Below are positions 7,368 to 58,345 of a stretch of DNA of 64,000 nucleotides, piece after piece (positions within the stretch are counted from its first letter, which is position 1; each line of letters opens with the position of its first letter). Source of the stretch: Nocardioides eburneiflavus. Lineage in GTDB: Bacteria; Actinomycetota; Actinomycetes; Propionibacteriales; Nocardioidaceae. The notes beneath the pieces were generated by a model. That model saw only the letters and a program-made list of their open reading frames with translations, had not been told where the DNA came from and made no database searches. The stretch lies in contig NZ_SRRO01000001.1 in the NCBI RefSeq assembly GCF_004785795.1, positions 992,001-1,056,000 on the forward strand, in the 5' to 3' direction. Position numbers and translations under genes: made by a program.

Positions 7368-8002
7368 ACGAGCTCACGCTCGACGCGATCACCTACGTCA
7401 ACGGCCGTACGCTCCTCGACGACGTGAGCGTCACCTTCCCGGCCGGCAAGGTGACCGCCCTGTCGGGGCCGAGCGGCTCCGGCAAGACCACCCTGCTCTC
7501 CATCGCCGGCGGCCTGCTCCAGGCCACGTCCGGCACCGCTGCCCTCGACGGTCGCGAGATGTGGACCGGCAGCGGCGACCCGCTGCCCGAGGTGGCGTTC
7601 GTCCTCCAGGTCTACGGCCTCGTCCCCATCCTCTCGGCCCGGGAGAACGTCTCCATCGCGCTGCGCGCCCGAGGGGTCGCCCCTGCCGACGCCGACGAGG
7701 CCGCCGAGGCCGCGCTGGCCCGGTTCGGCATCGCCGACCTCGGCGAGCGCCAGGTCGAGGAGCTGTCCGGAGGCCAGATGCAGCGCGTGGCCTGCGCCCG
7801 CGGGTTCGTCGTCGGCGCAGAGGTCCTCCTCGCCGACGAGCCCACCTCCGAGCTCGACGAGGGCAACCGCGGCGTCGTCCTCGCCGAGCTGCGCGAGGAG
7901 GCGGCGCGCGGAGCCGTCGTCGTCGTCGCCACCCACGACCCCGCCGTCGTCGAGGCGTGCGACCTCCACGTCGCGCTCGACGAGGGGCGGGTCGTCCGTT
8001 GA
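7364..8002 (+). CDS. ABC transporter ATP-binding protein (exporter, subunit 2)
   Basis: A 212-residue ATPase made of the core domain only. Walker A is GPSGSGKTT, the Q-loop is FVLQVYGLVP, the signature is LSGGQMQRV, Walker B is VLLADEPTSELD and the switch is VATHD. It overlaps the preceding ATPase gene (ATGA) and the following permease gene (TTGA), so all are co-translated. Two different ATPases plus two different permeases suggest one heteromeric complex, or two exporters sharing an operon. MacB/LolCDE relatives move lipoproteins, peptides or antibiotics without a conventional transmembrane path. Confidence 0.87.
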   Translation: MNELTLDAITYVNGRTLLDDVSVTFPAGKVTALSGPSGSGKTTLLSIAGGLLQATSGTAALDGREMWTGSGDPLPEVAFVLQVYGLVPILSARENVSIALRARGVAPADADEAAEAALARFGIADLGERQVEELSGGQMQRVACARGFVVGAEVLLADEPTSELDEGNRGVVLAELREEAARGAVVVVATHDPAVVEACDLHVALDEGRVVR

Positions 8003-10359
8003 GCCGTGTCCTCCGGGGCGCCTGGAGCCGCCGAGGCGCGCTGACGACCCTGGTCCTGATGACCGTGGTGGTCGTCGGCGGCGCCGTCACCGTCCTCCAG
8101 TTCGCCGGGGCCGCCGGCACGTCGCCGTGGCTCACCGCACCCCTGCTCCTGCTCGGTGCCGTCGCGGTGCCCAGCATCGGTGCTGAGCTCGCGGTCGCCC
8201 GTCGCGAGGAGATCGGCCTGGCCCGGCTGCGCGGCATCCACGGGCTCCGCCTGTGGCGCTTCCTGCTGGTCGAGCCGCTGCTCGCCATCACCCTCGGCGC
8301 CCTGGTCGGACTGGCGGTCGGAGCTGCCGGGACGCTGCTCGCGACGTCCACCTGGCTGGACGGGTCGGCGCCCGCGATCGGCCGACCCGCACTGCTGGCC
8401 GCCGCGGGCATCGCGGGCGCCGGTCTCGTCATCGTCGGGCTCTCGGCAGGGGCCGCGCTGCGCGAGCCGCTGGCGGCCCAGGTGTCGGCCCGTCGCCGCC
8501 CGCGCCGGGCGACGACCCTCGCCGTGTTCCTGAGCGTCCTCGTGCTCGTCGGCGCCGGCGTCGCGGCCTACCGCAGCCGCACGGGCGACGGCGAGCCAGA
8601 CCTCCTCGTGCTCCTCGGCCCGGCCCTGGTCGGCCTGGCGCTCGGGCAGGTCGCGACCTGGGTGGTCCGGATCGCCGCGCGTGGCCTGACTCCGGCCACC
8701 GAGCGACGCGGCCTCGGCGCCTTCCTGGCCGCCCGGCGGCTCGCCCGCGCCGACGACCTCGTCACGCCCATCCGCCTCGTCGTCGCAGCCGCCGTCGTGG
8801 GCTCGCTCGCGCTCAGCGGCGCCGTCGCCGTCAGCGGGTGGACCGCCGAGCAGGCCGCGGTCGAGGTGCCGGGTGCCTGGACGATCGACGCCAGCGAGCT
8901 CGGCGCGATGGGAGCCGTGGACCTGACCGAGCGCGCCGACCCCGAGGGCCGCCACCTCCTCGCGACGGCCATCGTCCGCAACGAGACCCGGCTGCCCGAG
9001 CGCCGGGCGTACGTCGACGCAGCGCGCTGGGACGCCGTCGTCGGCGACTTCTACGACGGGACCCCGGCACGTGCCGCCTCCGACGCGGTCTCCCGCCTCG
9101 ACACGGGGATGGCTCCCGTGCAGGTCACCGGTGAGCGGCTCGACGTGACCATGACCGGCCTCGAGGTCCCCGGGGTGCGCACCTTCCGCGGGCCCGATGG
9201 CCAGGACGTACGGGTCGGGGGCGGGCGCCTGGTGCTGACGCTCAGCTTCGTGAGCGCGGCCAACACCTCCGGCGCGGTGGCGGTGAACCTCGCCGTCCCC
9301 GACGACGGCACTCCCGTCCGCCGGTCGGTCCGCGTGCGAGCCTGCGCGGAGGGCTGTGTCGTCACCGGCCTGACGATCGACCGCGACAGCAACGGGCTCC
9401 TCGACGACAGCGACTTCGTCGTGCTCGTCGAGGAGCTCGCCCTCGGCGACGACGACCTGCTCGCCGAGGCCTGGACGCCCGACCCGTCGTCCGTCGAGTC
9501 GGCGCTCAACAACCGTTTCATCCGCAGCTACGAGCCGCCCGACGTGATCGCGGTCAACCGGGCCGACGGTCTCCAGCTGGCGCTGCTGCCGGGGGTCCCG
9601 CTCGCGCTCGACCTCGACCTCGGCCCCGCCGAGGTGCCCGTGCTCGTGGCGGACGAGGCCGCACCCCAGGCGCTCGACCTGGGCGGCGACGACCGCGTCA
9701 CCGAGGTCCTCGGCGTGGCCCGGTCGATGCCGCTCGTCGGCACCGTCGGGACCCTCGCCGACATCCGTGCGTCCGCGGTCGGCTCCGGCCCCACCGTCCC
9801 GTCAGCCGAGGTCCAGATCGTCGCCGCGCCCGGCACCCCGCAGTCCGTGCTCGACGAGGTCGCTGCGGCCACCAACGCGCAGTGGCGCACGAGGCAGGCC
9901 GTGCGGGAGTCGCTCGGCGAGCGCTTCGGCGGCGCCCAGTTCGTGGCGTACGCCCTGACCGCCCTCGCGTGTGCTCTGGTCGCGCTCCTCGCCCTGGGCG
10001 CCGGCGTGGCGCGGCACCGGCGCGACTACCGCCGCGACGTCGCCTCGCTGCGCGTGCTCGGCATCTCGACCGGCACCGCCCGCCGCGCGGGGCGCGCCGA
10101 GCTGGTGAGCCTGACCGTCCTCGTGCTCGCCGGCGTCGTCGCCGGAGGATGGCTCGCGGTGACGCTGCTGCTCGACGGCCTGCCCCTCCTGACCATCCCC
10201 GTCGCCGGGCTGGCCCTCGACACGGCCCCGCACGCCTGGCCGCTCGCGATCCCCGCGCTGGTCTCGGCCGCCGCCGTCGTGGTCGTCGGCGGGCGGGCCC
10301 GCGCCGTACGCGCCGCCACCACCCGACCCAGCCTGCTGCGCGAGGAGGACGGCGCGTGA
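7999..10359 (+). CDS. FtsX-like ABC transporter permease 1
   Basis: A 786-residue membrane protein with about ten predicted helices. Seven fall in the first 300 residues, for example ALTTLVLMTVVVVGGAVTVL and LLVEPLLAITLGALVGLAVG. A roughly 370-residue extracytoplasmic domain (residues about 310-660) follows, then three C-terminal helices with the FtsX-like pattern ALTALACALVALLALGAGVA. The start is a TTG at 7999 that overlaps the upstream stop as TTGA; there is no closer ATG or GTG in frame. Its end overlaps the next gene as GTGA. Substrate is unknown. Confidence 0.82.
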   Translation: MSRVLRGAWSRRGALTTLVLMTVVVVGGAVTVLQFAGAAGTSPWLTAPLLLLGAVAVPSIGAELAVARREEIGLARLRGIHGLRLWRFLLVEPLLAITLGALVGLAVGAAGTLLATSTWLDGSAPAIGRPALLAAAGIAGAGLVIVGLSAGAALREPLAAQVSARRRPRRATTLAVFLSVLVLVGAGVAAYRSRTGDGEPDLLVLLGPALVGLALGQVATWVVRIAARGLTPATERRGLGAFLAARRLARADDLVTPIRLVVAAAVVGSLALSGAVAVSGWTAEQAAVEVPGAWTIDASELGAMGAVDLTERADPEGRHLLATAIVRNETRLPERRAYVDAARWDAVVGDFYDGTPARAASDAVSRLDTGMAPVQVTGERLDVTMTGLEVPGVRTFRGPDGQDVRVGGGRLVLTLSFVSAANTSGAVAVNLAVPDDGTPVRRSVRVRACAEGCVVTGLTIDRDSNGLLDDSDFVVLVEELALGDDDLLAEAWTPDPSSVESALNNRFIRSYEPPDVIAVNRADGLQLALLPGVPLALDLDLGPAEVPVLVADEAAPQALDLGGDDRVTEVLGVARSMPLVGTVGTLADIRASAVGSGPTVPSAEVQIVAAPGTPQSVLDEVAAATNAQWRTRQAVRESLGERFGGAQFVAYALTALACALVALLALGAGVARHRRDYRRDVASLRVLGISTGTARRAGRAELVSLTVLVLAGVVAGGWLAVTLLLDGLPLLTIPVAGLALDTAPHAWPLAIPALVSAAAVVVVGGRARAVRAATTRPSLLREEDGA

Positions 10360-13300
10360 ACCAGCTGTCCTCGATGCTCGGTGCGATCCTGCGCGGCCTG
10401 CGGGCCCGGGCCCTGCTCAGTGCGGGCTCGGTGCTGCTCACCGCCCTCGCGGTCGCCTCGGCGGTGCTCGGTCCGATCTTCGCGGCCGCGGTCACCAACT
10501 CCTACGTCGTCACCCGGTTGCGGGAGGCGCCGCCCGCGCTGACCGGGCTCAGCCGGGTCTTCGCCCCGGACTCCCCGTCGTCCAGCGCCGACGCGGTCGC
10601 CCAGGCCGTCGCGGGCACCGAGTCGCTCAACGAGGGGCCTTGGGGCGGGACGGCAGCGATCGTGCAGTCCGAGCGGGTCATGGCCCTGCGCGGCTCGGTG
10701 GAGTTCTGGGCGCGCGACGGCGGCTGCGAGGCGCTGGAGGTCACCGGCCGGTGCCCCGAGCGCGACGGAGAGGTGCTGCTGCTCGAGAAGGCCGCCGAGC
10801 AGCAGGGGGCCGAGGTCGGGGAGCAGCTCGAGCTGGTCGGCTTCGAGCCGCCGGCGTTGCAGCAGCTCGGGCTGCCCCGCCCGGGGCTCCGGACGGTCAC
10901 GGTGGTCGGCACGTACGCCACCCCCACGGACGCCACCGACTGGCTGGTCCCGCAGCGGCTGACGTCCACCAACGAGGCGGTCAGCGACAACCCGGGCGGC
11001 GGCTACACGCCGTACTCCCCGGGTCCGGTCATCACGACCCCCGGCACCGTGGAGGCGATGGGCGACTGGACGGTCCGCGTCGACACCTTCCTCGACGTGC
11101 CGGCCGACATCACGCCCGCCGAGCTCTCCGTGGCGGCGCGCTCGGCCGCGACGATCCCCGACGACGAGGCGGTCGAGGTCGAGGGCGGCACGCTGGTCGA
11201 CGACGGCACCAACGACCTCGCCGCCGTCCTCGACGAGGTCCGCACCCAGCAGGACACCGCCCGCAGCTCCATCGCCCCCGCCGTCCTGTCGCTCGTGCTG
11301 GTCGCGCTGGCGCTGCTCATGCGGCTGCTCAACGCCGCCAGCGAGCTGCGGGTGCCGGAGCTCGCCCTCGCGTCCCTGCGCGGGGTCACCTCGCGCCGGC
11401 TGTGGGGGCTCGGGCTCGCCGAGCCGCTCACCATCCTCGTCATCTCCGCCCCCCTCGGCATCGCCCTCGGGCTCGGCAGCGGCCTGCTGCTGGTGCGCTC
11501 CTGGCTGGTCCCCGGACTGCCGCTGCCCGTCGTGGCGACGAGCTGGGTGGCGGCGGCGCTGGTGCTGCTGGCCGCCCTCGCCGTCGCGTGCGTGGCCATC
11601 GGGCTGGTGGTCCGCGAGTCGCTCGCGTCCCAGCTCGCGGGCGTACGTCGGCCCGCCGCGGCACGGCGCTGGTCGGTCATCGCCCAGCTCACGCTCGTGG
11701 CCCTCGCGGCGGCGGTGCTGCTCAGCAAGCTGTCCGGCACCGGCGGCGGTGACCCGGACGCCACCGACCTCCTGCTCCCCGTGCTGCTGGCGGTCGTGGC
11801 CGGCCTCGCCGCGACCAGGACCACCGCGGCGCTCGCCACCTGGTGGACCCGTCGCTCGCGGGGTCGGTCGCTCAGCGGCTTCGTCTCCTCGCGCGCGATC
11901 TCGCGGCGCCAGGAGGGCACCCTGATCATCCTGCCGATCACCGCCGCGATCGCGGTCTCGGTGTTCGGCGCCGGCGTCTACGACTCGGCCGCGGCGTGGC
12001 GCACGAGCGTCGCGGCGACGGTCTCGCCGGCCCACACCACGTGGCACTCCCCGGTGAGCTATGCCGAGACGCTGGAGCTGACCCGACGCGTCGACCCCGA
12101 GGGCGAGTGGGTGATGGCCGCGGGGTCCGTGCTCAACCCGGGTGCGCACTTCTCCGTGGTCGACAGCAGCCGTCTCGCCCGGGTCGCGACGTGGCCGCCG
12201 ACGTGGAGCCCGGGACGCGACGTCGAGCAGGTCGCCGAGGACATCGCCCCGCCGGGCGCGGTGCCCACGTTCTCCGGCAGGCGGATCTCGGTCACCGTCG
12301 ACAGCCGGGTGGAGAGCGACGAGCCGCTCGCCCTCGAGGTCCGGTTCGGCCGCCGCGACGGCATCCCGCTGAAGGTCTACCTCGGCCCCTACGGCACGGG
12401 TGAGTCCACGCGGTCGGCCAAGGTGCCGTGGTGCCGGGACGTCCCGTGCCCGATCGAGGGGATGACTCTCGGCGGCGGCGCGGGCACCAACACCGCGATG
12501 TCCGGCGAGGTCGCGGTGACCGCGGTCCTGGCCGACGGCCGGCCCGTGCCCGGTGTCATCGAGGGAGCGGACTGGGTCGCGACCCCCGACCCCGCCGTAC
12601 GCTCCTCGATCACCGACCTCCGCGAGGTCGACGGCACCCTGGAGATGACGGTCGACACGGGCGACTCGGTCGGCATGGCGCGCCTGACCGCCGGCGGCAT
12701 CGTCGCGCAGCGCCCGGCCCTCGCCGGTCCCAAGGTCCAGGACACGGCCCTCGCCAAGCTCGAGGAGGGGTTCGGCCTCGTCCGGGTCGAACCGCTCGGC
12801 GGCATCGGCGCGGTGGAGGGCATGCCGTTCACCGGCCCGTCCGGCCTGCTGGTCGACTACTCGTCCTTCATCACCGACCGGCCCGTCTACAACAGCAACC
12901 TCGACACCCGCGTGCTCCAGCGCGAGGGGGCCCCGGCCGAGATCACCGACGCCCTCTCCGCGGCCGGGCTCACCGTCGAGACCACGCTCGCCCAGGAGCA
13001 GCGCGTCCTCGACCAGAGCGCGTACGCCCTGGCGCTGCGGCTCTACGCCGTGGTGGCCGCGCTCGTGCTCCTGATGGCCCTCGCGGGACTGTTCGTCAGC
13101 GCCGCCGTGCAGCTGCCCGCCCGTCGTCGCGACGCCGCGGCGCTGCGCGTCGTCGGCGTGCCGCGCTCGTCGGTGATGGGGGCAGTGGTGCGCGAGCTCG
13201 CCGTGGTCCTCGGCGGCGCCGCGATCGCCGGCATCCTGGCCGGCTCGCTGGCGCAGTGGGTCGTGCTGCGCTCGATCACGCTGGGGTACGCCGAGGGGCT

Positions 13301-13454
13301 GGCGACGCCGGCCCTGGTGGCGACCATCTCACCGCTGCGCCTCGTCGTGCTGGCGCTGCTCGCGGCGGCCGTCTTCGGAGCGGTCGCCCTGCTCAGCGCG
13401 TCGATGACCGTACGGGGAGCGCGGGGGGCGACGTTGCGCGAGTCGGCCCGCTGA
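10356..13454 (+). CDS. FtsX-like ABC transporter permease 2
   Basis: A 1032-residue paralogue of the preceding permease, with the same plan. Helices at about 15-40, 310-340, 370-440, 470-520 and 530-560 enclose large exported domains, and a C-terminal FtsX module runs LRLYAVVAALVLLMALAGLFVSAAVQ to LRLVVLALLAAAVFGAVALLSAS. GTG 10356 overlaps the previous stop (GTGA) and is preceded by GAGGAGG. The last gene of the operon, it ends only three bases from the stop of a convergent response-regulator gene with no hairpin between, so transcripts may run into each other. Confidence 0.82.
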   Translation: MNQLSSMLGAILRGLRARALLSAGSVLLTALAVASAVLGPIFAAAVTNSYVVTRLREAPPALTGLSRVFAPDSPSSSADAVAQAVAGTESLNEGPWGGTAAIVQSERVMALRGSVEFWARDGGCEALEVTGRCPERDGEVLLLEKAAEQQGAEVGEQLELVGFEPPALQQLGLPRPGLRTVTVVGTYATPTDATDWLVPQRLTSTNEAVSDNPGGGYTPYSPGPVITTPGTVEAMGDWTVRVDTFLDVPADITPAELSVAARSAATIPDDEAVEVEGGTLVDDGTNDLAAVLDEVRTQQDTARSSIAPAVLSLVLVALALLMRLLNAASELRVPELALASLRGVTSRRLWGLGLAEPLTILVISAPLGIALGLGSGLLLVRSWLVPGLPLPVVATSWVAAALVLLAALAVACVAIGLVVRESLASQLAGVRRPAAARRWSVIAQLTLVALAAAVLLSKLSGTGGGDPDATDLLLPVLLAVVAGLAATRTTAALATWWTRRSRGRSLSGFVSSRAISRRQEGTLIILPITAAIAVSVFGAGVYDSAAAWRTSVAATVSPAHTTWHSPVSYAETLELTRRVDPEGEWVMAAGSVLNPGAHFSVVDSSRLARVATWPPTWSPGRDVEQVAEDIAPPGAVPTFSGRRISVTVDSRVESDEPLALEVRFGRRDGIPLKVYLGPYGTGESTRSAKVPWCRDVPCPIEGMTLGGGAGTNTAMSGEVAVTAVLADGRPVPGVIEGADWVATPDPAVRSSITDLREVDGTLEMTVDTGDSVGMARLTAGGIVAQRPALAGPKVQDTALAKLEEGFGLVRVEPLGGIGAVEGMPFTGPSGLLVDYSSFITDRPVYNSNLDTRVLQREGAPAEITDALSAAGLTVETTLAQEQRVLDQSAYALALRLYAVVAALVLLMALAGLFVSAAVQLPARRRDAAALRVVGVPRSSVMGAVVRELAVVLGGAAIAGILAGSLAQWVVLRSITLGYAEGLATPALVATISPLRLVVLALLAAAVFGAVALLSASMTVRGARGATLRESAR

Positions 13455-13457
13455 CGG

Positions 13458-14216
13458 TCAGGGGCAGCAGGGGTCGAAGCGGAACCCGACGCCGCGGATC
13501 GTCCGGATCCACTCGTTGCTCGCAGCGGCCCTGCGCAGCTTGCGGCGCAGGTTGGCCAGGTGCACGTCGACGACGTGGGTGCTGTCGGGGACGAAGTCGC
13601 TCGCCCACACCGCACGCATCAGGTCCTGGCGCGCGACGACGACCCCCGGGTTGCTGACCAGGTGGGCCAGCAGGTCGAACTCGGTGCGCGTCAGGTCGAT
13701 CTCCTCGCCGCCGACGAGGACCTCGCGAGAGCTGCGGTCGAGGGTGAGGTCGCTGCAGCCCAGTGCTCTCGTCGGACCTGGCGTGGGGTCGGTCCGGGCA
13801 TCGGCGACGGCCGGCTGCTCGACGCCCACGCCCATGACGTCGCTGGTGCGCGGGCGACGGAACAGCGCCGCGACCCGCGCCTGCAGCTCACGCATCGAGA
13901 ACGGCTTGACCAGGTAGTCGTCGGCGCCGACCTCGAGGCCGACGAGTCGGTCGACCTCGTCCGTACGTCCGCTGACGACGATGACGTAGCAGTCGCTCGT
14001 GGTCCGGATCCGGCGGCAGACCTCGACCCCGTCGATGTCGGGCAGCGTGAGGTCGAGCGTCACCAGGTCGGGCTGCACCTCGTGAACGAGGGCCAGCGCC
14101 TCGGCGCCGGTGTGCGCGACGACGACGTCGAACCCCGCCAGGTCGAGGAGCTGGGAGATGGCGTCGCCGACATCGCGGTCGTCCTCGACGACCACGGCTG
14201 TCCGTGCGTTCATCAT
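13458..14216 (-). CDS. OmpR/PhoB-type response regulator (tandem copy A)
   Basis: A 252-residue regulator. Receiver residues are the acidic pair in VVVEDDRDV, the phosphoacceptor Asp in DLVTLDLTLPD, a Ser in VIVVSGR and the Lys in DYLVKPFS. A linker of about 40 residues leads to a winged helix with EEIDLTRTEFDLLAHLVSN and HVVDVHLANLRRKLRR. A short Cys-Cys-Pro end is unusual. It is a close paralogue of the next gene upstream, and no kinase lies beside either. ATG 14216 (or the adjacent ATG 14213) follows GGGGAG. Confidence 0.9.
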   Translation of the reverse strand: MMNARTAVVVEDDRDVGDAISQLLDLAGFDVVVAHTGAEALALVHEVQPDLVTLDLTLPDIDGVEVCRRIRTTSDCYVIVVSGRTDEVDRLVGLEVGADDYLVKPFSMRELQARVAALFRRPRTSDVMGVGVEQPAVADARTDPTPGPTRALGCSDLTLDRSSREVLVGGEEIDLTRTEFDLLAHLVSNPGVVVARQDLMRAVWASDFVPDSTHVVDVHLANLRRKLRRAAASNEWIRTIRGVGFRFDPCCP

Positions 14217-52805: not shown

Positions 52806-53204
52806 ATGACGCAATCACCGGATGAGGCGTTAGATACCGAGATTGACTACTCCGAAGAAGTGCGGGCCGAGGACACCGACAAAGCTCCATCCACTGTGAC
52901 GTTCACCTTCTTCCCGAATGATGACCGGCCATGGGCGATCGACTTCGCAGGCGCATGTCCCCGATGTGGGCATAACCAACCGGTCTTGCGACGACAATTG
53001 GTCACGATCGCGGGCGCCAGCAAGATGAACGAAGCGCAGCGTCGCCGCGCAGAAGCCGAACTTGCAGACTTCGGGATCGACCTATCGCGGGGAGACGAAA
53101 CGTTTCCCCTCAGGTGTTCCTGCCAGAACCGCCATGGCAAGAGGCCTAGCGGAAAGGCCGGTTGCGGGTCGTCCTACAACGTGCGAGTGGTGTGGGAACC
53201 GTGA
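52806..53204 (+). CDS. Cys-rich zinc-ribbon-like protein, unknown function
   Basis: A 132-residue soluble protein. ACPRCGHNQP (Cys51, Cys54) and RCSCQNRHG (Cys104, Cys106, His110), then GCGSSY (Cys120), could form one or two zinc sites. The N-terminal 30 residues are acidic. A helix SKMNEAQRRRAEAEL separates the Cys pairs. It is not recognised as a named family. Its TGA overlaps the next start (GTGA). Codon use is less GC-biased than the flanks. Ribosome site GGTGGAA is weak. It may bind nucleic acid or a protein partner. Confidence 0.7.
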   Translation: MTQSPDEALDTEIDYSEEVRAEDTDKAPSTVTFTFFPNDDRPWAIDFAGACPRCGHNQPVLRRQLVTIAGASKMNEAQRRRAEAELADFGIDLSRGDETFPLRCSCQNRHGKRPSGKAGCGSSYNVRVVWEP

Positions 53205-53842
53205 CGCCTGCTCGCTTTGAGCCACCGCTGGTCCCGGTCACTGCAGTTGCTGAGGAGTTCGAGCGGCAGTGGTTGTCATTGGCCGACAAGCAGTTAGAGT
53301 CCGTACGCAAGATGGCCGAGAACTGGCGCACGGGCCTTGCTGCCCTTCTTGGGCTCGTCTCCATCTTCTCCGTTGTCAAGGCTCCGACTGCGACTGCGGA
53401 CATGGACACTTGGGCGATTTGGACGACCGGCGGGCTGCTCTTTACCTCGGCCCTCCTTGCAGTGCTCGGCGCCGACCAAGCAATGCGAGCTGCCTACGGG
53501 GTGCCACAGCGGATGGTCCGGGCCAAGTTCTTCCAGATCGGTGGAACGCAGGGGATCAATCTCGCGCAGGCTGAAGATGCCCGGTCGGCATTGCGCGTTG
53601 CGCGGATCATGACCTACGTCGCCTTGGCCGCGCTCGCCGGGTCCGTAGCGATGACCTGGTGGGGTCCTGGCTCCGATTCCGATCAGGTGCGGGCGACCAC
53701 GTCGCAAGGACTAGTTGTCTGCGGCACGCTGGTGGAATCAGCCGACGGTGTCATACAAGTCGACTCGAAGACCGCGGGACCGCAGCGCGTGAAACTCACT
53801 CAGGTTGTAAAGCTTGAAGCGGTGAGTACGTGTGATGAGTGA
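53201..53842 (+). CDS. three-pass membrane protein, unknown function
   Basis: A 213-residue membrane protein. The N-terminal 40 residues form an amphipathic helix (VAEEFERQWLSLADKQLESVRK). Helices lie at about 43-60, 71-92 and 136-155. A C-terminal soluble domain carries Cys174 and Cys211, which could pair. The helix-loop-two-helices layout loosely resembles small effector-type membrane proteins of defence systems, but no motif proves this. GTG 53201 overlaps the stop of the zinc-ribbon gene (GTGA). Its end overlaps the metallopeptidase start by 8 bp. Confidence 0.7.
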   Translation: MTPARFEPPLVPVTAVAEEFERQWLSLADKQLESVRKMAENWRTGLAALLGLVSIFSVVKAPTATADMDTWAIWTTGGLLFTSALLAVLGADQAMRAAYGVPQRMVRAKFFQIGGTQGINLAQAEDARSALRVARIMTYVALAALAGSVAMTWWGPGSDSDQVRATTSQGLVVCGTLVESADGVIQVDSKTAGPQRVKLTQVVKLEAVSTCDE

Positions 53843-54932
53843 CGACGCGCTCCCGGGCGACCCCACCAATCAGCTTGAGCGCGCCCTGATCAACATCGTT
53901 CACGGACTTGGATTCGATCCGCCGGACCGGAAGGCCATGCTTCTTCCGCCTCAGACACGAATCGTGAAGTCCACGGGCAACGACTACAAGTGTTTCACTA
54001 TGTGGTTCGGCGGCCAGGCCACAGTACGGATGGGCGGGTCTACTTACAACGCTCTCAGCGCACTGACCAGGGCGGCTGCGACCTTCTTCGTAGCGGACGA
54101 CCGTGGCGAGAAGCCGTCAACGTCTTGGCCGGCCGCTCGAGATCAGCTCGCCTCGGCCATCGATTGGTGCGCCTCGCCCGCGCGCACACCGCACATCGTC
54201 ATTCCAAAGGTGACCAAGTCCCAGCACGTGCCGGCAACCGCCTTTGCTCAATACGCCTATCGGTTCATCATCTGCCACGAACTGGCGCACATTGTGCTGG
54301 AGCACCGGGATGAATTGAAAAAGGATTCCGACGCCGAGGACACCTCGACCCTCCGGGCATCACAGCAGCAAGAACTGGAAGCCGATGAATTCGGCTTCCG
54401 GATGCACGTAGAGTCGCGGCCGCAACCAGAAATGCTCGTGACTGCCTTGGCCTCTCCAATCTACTTCGTATACCTGCTTCGAGCGTTCGACGACTATCGG
54501 CTCGCTGCGCTGGCCAATCTGGTTGACTACAAGGCCTGGAAGATCGAGTACAACTATCCGCCATACCTTCAGCGCATCTTTGGTCTCATGGGGCAAGCCC
54601 AAGACATGGCCGGCGCGAATGCAGCGAAGGGGCTTCAGATGGTCCATGAAGGACTGTCGGAGGTTGTAGGTCAAGCATGGGAAGCATCTGAGCGCCTCCG
54701 TACAGAGGTGGCGGAGCAGACGACCCACGTCATCGCCTCTCGCAAGCGGGAGGCGGCCAACGAGTTGCGCTCGCTGCTCGAGCGAAGCCCGATCGGAGTA
54801 CTGGAGGCGCTCGACGTTGACCGGCAGCGGTCTTGGGAGACCCATGGCTGGCCGTTCGCGGAAGTACTTCCACCAGAGTTCCCGAATTTCCTCCGATTGG
54901 ATCAGGCGGAGCGTGCACGACTCCTCGCATGA
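53835..54932 (+). CDS. HExxH zinc metallopeptidase, unknown specificity
   Basis: A 365-residue putative metallopeptidase. IICHELAHIVLEH carries the zinc histidines His148 and His152 and catalytic Glu149. About 30 residues later QQELEADEFGFRMH offers Glu180 or Glu182 as the third ligand. This spacing is shared by gluzincin-like and M48/IrrE-like peptidases. Before it lies a helical segment with few Cys. The C-terminal 150 residues are predicted helical with a coiled-coil-like stretch (AWEASERLRTEVAEQTT). No signal peptide is visible, so it should act in the cytoplasm. ATG 53835 overlaps the membrane-protein gene; GTG 53832 is possible. Confidence 0.75.
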   Translation: MSDDALPGDPTNQLERALINIVHGLGFDPPDRKAMLLPPQTRIVKSTGNDYKCFTMWFGGQATVRMGGSTYNALSALTRAAATFFVADDRGEKPSTSWPAARDQLASAIDWCASPARTPHIVIPKVTKSQHVPATAFAQYAYRFIICHELAHIVLEHRDELKKDSDAEDTSTLRASQQQELEADEFGFRMHVESRPQPEMLVTALASPIYFVYLLRAFDDYRLAALANLVDYKAWKIEYNYPPYLQRIFGLMGQAQDMAGANAAKGLQMVHEGLSEVVGQAWEASERLRTEVAEQTTHVIASRKREAANELRSLLERSPIGVLEALDVDRQRSWETHGWPFAEVLPPEFPNFLRLDQAERARLLA

Positions 54933-55124: not shown

Positions 55125-56533
55125 GGTCAAGTCCCTTGGCGTGGTGTACGACGGTGATTCGTCGTTGATGGTGGTCAGGCGCTGATCGCGCCGGCGGTGA
55201 TGGCGTCCTCCTCTTCGGGCTCGGTGGTGATGAGGGTGAGGCGGCTCTTGGCCAGGACGTCGAGTCCGAGGTAGCGGCGTCCGTCGGCCCATTCGTCGTT
55301 CTGCTCGGCCAGCACGGCTCCAACGAGCCGGATGATCGAGCCTCGGTCGGGGAAGATCCCGACGACGTCGGTACGGCGACGGATCTCGCGGTTGAGGCGC
55401 TCGTTGGGGTTGTTGGACCAGATCTGGCGCCACACGGCCTTCGGGAACGCGGTGAACGCGAGCACGTCGTCGCGGTGGGCGTCGAGGTGGGCGTGGACCT
55501 CGGGCAGCTGCGTGGTGTTGTCGAGGAGCTTGTCGTACTGGGCGTGGACGGCGTCGGTGTCGATCTGGTCGAACACCGAATGCAGCATCGCCTTCACCCC
55601 GCCCCAGGCGTGTTTGGGACAGATCGACATCAGGTTCGCGGCGTAGTGGGTACGGCACCGCTGCCACGACGCCCCAGGCAGGGTCGCCCCGATGGCGTCG
55701 ACCAGCCCGGCGTGGGCGTCGCTGGTGACCAGAGCGACCCCGGACAGGCCACGGGCAACGAGGTCCTTGAAGAAGGAGTTCCAGCCGGCACCGGACTCCG
55801 CGGTCGAGGTCGCGACGCCGAGGATCTCGCGGAACCCGTCGGCGTTGACGCCGGTGGCGACCATGACCGCGATCTTGATGACCCGGCCACCTTCGCGGAC
55901 CTTCATCGTCAGCGCGTCGGCGGCCACGAACGTGTACGGGCCGGCGTCGAGGGGGCGTTCGCGGAAGTCGCGGACCAGCTCGTCGAGATCCCGGGCCATC
56001 ACACTGACCTGGGACTTCGACAGCCCGGTGATGCCCAAGGACTGCACCAGTCGATCCATCCGCCGGGTCGAGACGCCGAGCAGGTAGCAGGTCGCGACCA
56101 CCGACGTCAGGGCTGCTTCGGCGCGGCGGCGTCGCTCGAGGAGCCACTCGGGGAAGTAGGAACCCTCCCGCAGCTTGGGGATCGCGACGTCGAGGGTGCC
56201 GATCCGGGTGTCGAGGTCGCGGTGCCGATAGCCGTTGCGGCGGTTGGACCGCTCGGGGTCACGGGCGCCGTAGGAGGCACCGCAGACGCTGTCGGCATCG
56301 GCGGAGAGCAACGTGTTGATGAAGCCCTGCATCAGCTCGCGGAGCAAGTCAGGGCTGGCCTGTGCCAGGTGCTCGTTCAGAAAGTCGGCGGGGTCGATAC
56401 TGGGACCAGCGGTCATCGCTGTGCCTCTCTTCGAGTGGGTTGTAGGAGATTCCTCGAAGAATCACGCGGTGACCGCGCCAGCGTCTATGCCAGGGCCGTC
56501 ACCACGTCATACACCACTCTGCTGGACTCAACT
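55125..56533 (-). mobile_element. IS256-family insertion sequence
   Basis: A 1409-bp element with one transposase gene. The ends form imperfect inverted repeats: about 30 bp at the left (GGTCAAGTCC, then GTGGTGTACGACG) and the right (on the other strand AAGTTGAGTCC, then GTGGTGTATGACG). Target duplications flank both sides exactly. It inserted between the metallopeptidase gene and the EamA gene without breaking a recognisable gene. The intact ends and duplication suggest a recent insertion. Confidence 0.9.
55175..56416 (-). CDS. IS256-family transposase (DDE, Mutator-like)
   Basis: A 413-residue transposase. The N-terminal RNRRNGYRHR-like segment (SNRRNGYRHRDLDTRIGTL) is typical. DDE candidates are Asp in TFVAADALTMKVRE, Asp in GVALVTSDAHAGL and Glu in NNPNERLNREIRRRTDVVGIFP. 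It includes the family phrase WQRCRTHYAANLM. The protein is full length with no frameshift, so it is probably active. ATG 56416 lies inside the right end region. Confidence 0.95.
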   Translation of the reverse strand: MTAGPSIDPADFLNEHLAQASPDLLRELMQGFINTLLSADADSVCGASYGARDPERSNRRNGYRHRDLDTRIGTLDVAIPKLREGSYFPEWLLERRRRAEAALTSVVATCYLLGVSTRRMDRLVQSLGITGLSKSQVSVMARDLDELVRDFRERPLDAGPYTFVAADALTMKVREGGRVIKIAVMVATGVNADGFREILGVATSTAESGAGWNSFFKDLVARGLSGVALVTSDAHAGLVDAIGATLPGASWQRCRTHYAANLMSICPKHAWGGVKAMLHSVFDQIDTDAVHAQYDKLLDNTTQLPEVHAHLDAHRDDVLAFTAFPKAVWRQIWSNNPNERLNREIRRRTDVVGIFPDRGSIIRLVGAVLAEQNDEWADGRRYLGLDVLAKSRLTLITTEPEEEDAITAGAISA

Positions 56534-57769: not shown

Positions 57770-58345
57770 TCAGGGCAGCGCCAGAGGTGCCTCGTGCACG
57801 AACCATGCGAGTGCGACGCAGTTGGCAATGACCGTGAACCAGAAGATGGTGCGGAACGGTTGCTTGGTCGTCTTGTGTCGGAAGACCTGCTGCGCGACCA
57901 GCGCACCCGGCCAACCACCAATGACGGCGAGCGTGTGGAGGGTGGACTCCGACGTGCGCCACCTGCCCTGTTCCGCTGCGGACTTGTCGGCGCGATACAT
58001 CAGGAACGCAACTGCGCTGAACAGGCCGTACACACTCAGCAGCGTGACTGGCAGCTCGTCCAGCACGAGAAGGCCCAATAGGAAGGTGAAGAACAGCGCC
58101 GCGGCGGCGAGCGCCGTGGGCACTCCAGGCGCGCCTGCACGGCTGGCCGATACGGCGCCGACGTATCGCACATCAGATGCGCGCGCCCGGTTCCGCTCGT
58201 CTCGAAGCTCGGCGTAGGTGACCTCGCACCCGGCGACTGGCCGCCGACCACCAGGAAACGCACTCACGTGCGCGAACACGCGGGCGCCTCCAGCAGCCGG
58301 CGTGATGAAGCCGAAGCCTCGGTCGTCATTCCAATCCGCCAGCAA
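57770..58345 (-). CDS. cold-shock-like domain plus DUF1294 membrane protein
   Basis: A 191-residue fusion. Residues about 1-50 match the start of a cold-shock domain (LADWNDDRGFGFITPAAGGARVFAHVSAF). Residues about 75-191 are DUF1294 with four helices and the motif ADKSAAEQGRWRTSESTLHTLAVIGGWPGAL. Such fusions are known in many bacteria; their function is unclear. The start is TTG 58345 after AGAGGGG; an in-frame stop lies just upstream, so it cannot be longer. Confidence 0.85.
   Translation of the reverse strand: MLADWNDDRGFGFITPAAGGARVFAHVSAFPGGRRPVAGCEVTYAELRDERNRARASDVRYVGAVSASRAGAPGVPTALAAAALFFTFLLGLLVLDELPVTLLSVYGLFSAVAFLMYRADKSAAEQGRWRTSESTLHTLAVIGGWPGALVAQQVFRHKTTKQPFRTIFWFTVIANCVALAWFVHEAPLALP

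Follow-up and report, generated by a model that had tools for sequence, protein, structure and literature searches.

Genes A and B of Nocardioides eburneiflavus form a strict two-gene module, and a candidate protease adjoins this module in 75 of the 78 A+B loci that we compared. In the reading that we prefer, which is quite possible though short of probable, A-B is the unchanging half of a modular membrane system coupled to proteases, the overlapping third gene C supplies the protease of this host genome, and the protease switches A/B. The device looks like an undescribed protease-driven defense or cell-death system. We infer that the protease acts on A/B, with the opposite direction nearly as likely.

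Layout and composition of the locus

The three genes lie within the window, the 64,000-nucleotide stretch of contig NZ_SRRO01000001.1 that was analyzed (Table 1). The overlaps seen in an earlier sequence-only reading agree with the coordinates, at 4 nt between A and B (GTGA, with the start of B within the stop of A) and 8 nt between B and C. The atypical codon use described there is borne out by GC3 values of 0.669 for A, 0.710 for B, and 0.705 for C; the 31 other predicted genes in the window of at least 200 aa and outside 52.0-58.4 kb average 0.909 (sd 0.064, minimum 0.757). The low-GC stretch beside an insertion sequence is also present, with GC contents of 0.620 and 0.605 in the 53-54 kb and 54-55 kb intervals compared with 0.678-0.782 over the first 52 kb, and with a Mutator/IS256-type transposase gene next to the trio. 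Long terminal inverted repeats of this insertion sequence were looked for and not found, and homologues of two flank genes left an insertion boundary unplaced. A cold-shock and DUF1294 protein (window 57770-58345) adjoins the low-GC island; among the 19 other genomes searched, only 1 has a full-length match to it, at 80% identity.

Table 1 Coordinates in the window of the three genes, their predicted functional residues, and the neighboring transposase.
Feature	Coordinates	Strand	Description or basis
Gene A	52806-53204	+	132 aa, zinc-ribbon-like; homologue family
Predicted metal ligands of A (C51, C54, C104, C106, H110, C120)	52956-53165	+	Alignment conservation
Gene B	53201-53842	+	213 aa, three-span membrane protein; GTG start at 53201
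Invariant C174 (53720-53722) and C211 (53831-53833) of B	53720-53833	+	C-terminal small-barrel domain
Gene C	53835-54932	+	365 aa from ATG at 53835; M48/U49-like zinc metallopeptidase (predicted), HExxH
Predicted catalytic motif HELAH of C (H148, E149, H152)	54276-54290	+	Invariant in 9-row alignment
Mutator/IS256-type transposase	55175-56416		Pfam Transposase_mut, E 8.9e-133

Recurrence of the trio

The same A-B-C order is found in L002/L024, where the overlaps are 4 and 11 nt and the peptidase is identical to the Kribbella jejuensis peptidase P0004. The Rhodococcus opacus megaplasmid pLPS8 carries A, a B divided between two frames, and a C with 30.6% identity to the C described here. Records of equal size suggest that the trio also occurs in Kribbella sp. 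NPDC059898 (P0005, P0020) and on a 3501-base metagenome contig (P0002, P0010). Such recurrence means that the arrangement goes beyond chance. The earlier suggestion of a binder, a membrane component, and a protease that together recall a regulated-proteolysis module fits both this recurrence and the coupling of A-B to proteases across Actinobacteria. In the R. opacus plasmid the B sequence (L008:7196-7961), split in two reading frames, lacks annotation.

Predicted features of the three proteins

Protein A carries the motifs CPRC, CSC, H, and GCG, and its family has five invariant cysteines and one near-invariant histidine. In ungapped rows among 74 aligned rows, C51 and C54 are each conserved in 67/67, C104, C106, and C120 each in 68/68, and H110 in 67/68, a pattern from which metal binding is predicted. 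Solved structures searched by sequence with A gave no credible match.

The hydropathy of the B family shows three hydrophobic peaks, the first of them weaker, and its charge pattern points to an N-in/C-out topology. This topology agrees with the natural A-B fusions, in which a cytosolic zinc ribbon would be fused to the N terminus of B. In a structural model of one fusion (P0022), B consists of three long helices (29-53 residues) and a small Sm/SH3-like barrel, and the C-terminal barrel of B resembles Hfq/SH3 in the model. Within this predicted outer barrel, C174 is conserved in 68/68 and C211 in 62/62 ungapped rows among 75 aligned rows, and the two cysteines probably form a disulfide. Neither B nor its scanned relatives match a Pfam family over the cut-off, solved structures searched by sequence with B gave no credible match, and similarity to a known pore former was not found. 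A SLATT label was rejected as insignificant (NCBIfam SLATT_1, E 1.1, 9.2 bits against a cut-off of 41). The holin match of B was insignificant too, and so were the MscS/CorA rows obtained with the A-B structural model. Genome contigs searched with B gave 24 pattern matches, of which 0 were confirmed, and viral contigs searched with one short pattern gave no B relative. Among plasmids, the L018 B protein had no match, and P0025 matched its own record alone.

For protein C, the HELAH motif is also invariant in an 8-row alignment that includes R. opacus, and E180 (54372-54374) is presumably the third zinc ligand, with the role that it has in M48 peptidases. The structural model of C has the zincin fold of solved M48 peptidases, and a zincin active site is predicted. 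C itself scores 19.5 bits with Pfam Peptidase_M48 against a cut-off of 20.3, P0006 clears this cut-off with 23.4 bits, and 7/7 members of alignment A4 match the family at E up to 1 (best 2.8e-6). The sequence-only reading recognized none of the three proteins, and for C this judgment stands only in part: a protein database lists PF10463.16 (Peptidase_U49, the Lit family) for C and its 8 listed homologues, yet C lies far under the Lit equivalog cut-off of NCBIfam (E 1.9e-5, 24 bits against 274). In our Pfam searches PF10463 was unlisted for C at E up to 5, and 2/7 members matched it in the Pfam copy used (best E 0.041). The PADLOC Lit model matches C at E 6.7e-4, and the top PADLOC matches are capP (E 1.6e-7, 29 bits), which covers the active-site stretch, and peptidase_U41 (E 6.3e-7, 27 bits), which spans much of C, both with low scores. 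C thus models as an M48-type zincin, and its link to Lit/U49 is weak. An obvious sensor domain is lacking in C.

The only match to C in the host genome is C itself, and full-length C is rare, occurring in 2/391 genomes of the order, the host included, with only partial matches in 5 others; Kribbella-like genomes belong to this order as well. Genome contigs gave 572 pattern matches, of which 0 were confirmed, relatives looked for in phage records and viral contigs were not found, and solved structures searched by sequence with C gave no credible match. A supposed B-C fusion, P0009, was rejected; its N terminus looks unrelated and it lacks part of the domain, which makes a degenerate gene or an assembly artefact the probable explanation.

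The A-B module and its distribution

A and B overlap by 4 nt in 65/78 loci, a count favored by choosing the B start nearest to such an overlap, and are fused in 2/78, with P0022 and P0023 as further natural fusions; gene calls in fetched loci came from a simple GC-frame script. Overlap and fusion also suit a toxin-antitoxin-like arrangement in which B would be toxic, A would neutralize it, and the protease would degrade A, and degradation of the antitoxin would explain the swapped protease families. We consider this very unlikely, because a toxin and an antitoxin joined in a natural fusion could hardly come apart without a cut in the linker.

The B profile matched 67/392 Streptomyces-like genomes (the genus of G741), 19/394 genomes of the class, 6/198 of the family, and 3/38 of a Kribbella-like genus, and an earlier, narrower profile matched 7/396 genomes of the phylum. 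The Streptomyces search gave 77 B matches, from which 60 loci were analyzed, with G572 and G741 besides; the other 15 (at most 76.4 bits, 8 with an internal stop) were left out. Later searches supplied 6 and 10 loci, the 10 from the class search, leaving out G055 (family search) and G1256, G1271, and G1299 (class search). A lies directly upstream of B in 59/60 Streptomyces loci, and on Streptomyces and Mycolicibacterium plasmids B relatives adjoin an A relative and a CHAT protease.

Patchy presence in Streptomyces and the class argues against the view that the module serves stress or developmental regulated proteolysis in actinobacteria, in which the protease would process the membrane pair to signal envelope state and would have no part in defense. 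Foreign composition at the Nocardioides locus, plasmid-borne copies, and single cases adjoining an ietAS-like pair and a TIR protein also stand against it. Some Streptomyces groups do share flanking genes and look vertically inherited (L068, L070, and L073, for example), as such a function allows, and on balance we regard it as unlikely.

Nine loci have B only (L021-L023, L114, L126, L127, and L154-L156); the search for A used alignment A2 for L021-L023 and A7 for the others, and tblastn found no caspase or CHAT in the stretches fetched. In L127 a subtilase-like gene, identified by eye, lies ~3 kb from B. The standalone three-span B-like proteins of L021, L022, and L023 retain the C-terminal CG...C pattern.

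Candidate proteases adjoining A-B

The partners belong to the caspase+GHKL, CHAT, EAD1-trypsin, and subtilase (ietAS-like) families and to HExxH proteins including C. Among the 60 Streptomyces loci, 23 have caspase+GHKL, 28 CHAT, 4 a HEYGH protein, and 1 an ietAS-like partner. The remaining 4 have no intact protease (L072, L098, L108, and L114, the last also without A), with a caspase remnant in L072, a CHAT remnant in L108, and neither in L098. Of the 10 loci taken from the class search, a caspase or CHAT is present in 7/7 with A and B and absent from 3/3 without A. One caspase partner matches Peptidase_C14, iHD-CE, HD-CE, and wHTH-HSP90_Na-assoc in Pfam, with HATPase_c under the cut-off (E 0.038). 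L019 has the EAD1-trypsin partner, and in L128 a fused A-B is followed by a caspase identified by PADLOC (E 2.1e-5), with no Pfam match.

In two distant genomes a large protein near A-B combines an HExxH motif with a dCTP-deaminase/dUTPase-like domain (L020:5422-7353 and L125:6532-8877). These HExxH-deaminase (HExxH-DCD) partners and the HEYGH partners have no peptidase family match in Pfam or PADLOC; the former are called putative metallopeptidases from the motif alone, and the latter from the motif and a profile comparison that links them moderately to C (hhalign probability 60, E 8e-5). The weakest links are L057, where the CHAT gene is 4.5 kb off with genes between, and L070, where the HEYGH gene is ~1.7 kb from B; those in L019 and L125 (convergent) and L020 (two intervening genes) are also looser. 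An EF-G-like GTPase gene (L068:10383-12407, the one locus where the domain was checked) precedes A-B in 3/4 HEYGH-type loci (L068, L070, and L073).

The ietAS pair, the AAA protein IetA and the subtilase IetS, is an anti-phage system. In L112 an IetA/IetS-like pair (10482-14026; PADLOC IetS E 4.5e-101 and IetA E 4e-66), with a low GC3 of 0.57, lies 26 nt from a divergent A-B. The IetS model gave weak matches only among 121 Streptomyces genomes (best 69.5 bits), so the link of ietAS to A-B stays a single case. In L148 a gene for a TIR protein with an AAA/NB-ARC-like domain (7460-8758) lies downstream of A-B, and a CHAT gene precedes A-B.

A caspase or CHAT lies within 6 kb in 51/59 Streptomyces A+B loci. 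In 12 hand-picked control genomes (~103 Mb; the host genome, 8 with A-B, and 3 without), we counted 37 CHAT and 28 caspase matches, a density that gives a random point a ~0.75% chance of a caspase or CHAT within 6 kb. The loci are non-independent: clustering at 70% identity reduces the 78 B sequences to 48 clusters. The partner label, with 'none' counted as one, changes 10 times on the B tree, compared with 34.6 times when shuffled (0/200 shuffles as low). The trio's B sequences (support 98), the HEYGH loci (91), and the caspase-GHKL loci with two 'none' loci (96) form clades, and most CHAT loci fall in two clades (99, 99); the tree is a quick one with no bootstrap, and its long branches make deep placements unsure. 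Protease class therefore follows the B tree, with partner-specific protease lineages.

A constant membrane part with swapped proteases would also suit a common sensor. In this alternative, A/B would be sensor and anchor and the protease the executioner: the B barrel would sense envelope damage, A would relay the signal, and the docked protease would cut a cytosolic host target. For Lit this target is EF-Tu, which it cleaves on a phage trigger. The weak C-Lit matches and the invariant cysteines in the outer domain of B are both in keeping with such a role. Against it, C is far under the Lit cut-off, and many partners own likely sensing or switching domains: 23/23 Streptomyces caspase partners have GHKL, and other tested cases show TPR, EAD1, or an accompanying AAA protein. 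We hold a sensor role for A/B to be possible but doubtful.

Proposed mechanism and comparison with known systems

The likely sensing or switching domains already carried by many partners favor the reading in which the protease acts on A/B. In this mechanism, A would be a cytosolic zinc-ribbon protein held at the N terminus of B, and B would cross the membrane three times, with its N terminus inside and its Sm/SH3-like barrel outside. The protease would be the switch, which in the relatives has domains of the GHKL/HD-CE/wHTH, TPR, or EAD1 kind or is paired with an AAA protein; at the Nocardioides locus, C, a Lit/M48-like zincin, would itself receive the trigger. Phage or damage would trigger the protease to cut A or the cytosolic part of B, and B, once released, might depolarize or permeabilize the membrane and so stop the infected cell, in the way that proteases release bacterial gasdermins. 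The gene neighborhood by itself fits A/B upstream or downstream of the protease alike.

Lit is a single gene, whereas C, an HExxH zincin with the PF10463 label, is tied to A and B. The gasdermin fold is unlike the modeled B of fusion P0022, with its three long helices and barrel, and A has no gasdermin counterpart. The likeness is one of gene arrangement: genes for caspase-like and other proteases are frequent neighbors of bacterial gasdermin genes (PMC9612521), and here, too, a candidate membrane effector gene stands beside proteases of differing families. This pairing of a membrane effector with varied proteases also favors action of the protease on A/B, with B as the putative effector. Caspases and trypsins with regulatory domains, similar to the A-B partners, occur in conflict systems of mostly multicellular bacteria, and the A-B pair is undescribed in the accessible parts of these sources (PMC7159879, PMC8195603). 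We found no description of the pair in the literature searched, which covered few subscription papers.

Association with caspases, CHAT, EAD1-trypsin, one ietAS-like pair, and one TIR protein suggests that the module may act in defense. More specifically, and with some doubt, A-B could be a membrane executioner that is widespread in actinobacteria, has no name so far, is no relative of the gasdermins, and has been wired in turn to caspase, CHAT, trypsin, subtilase, and zincin, of which the trio would be the metallopeptidase-driven form. A-B would then be common to three catalytic classes of protease: cysteine, serine, and metallo. If the proposal is true, A-B would be the common endpoint or sensor of many uncharacterized caspase/CHAT loci in Streptomyces and relatives, and orphan bacterial proteases would gain a directly testable substrate or partner.
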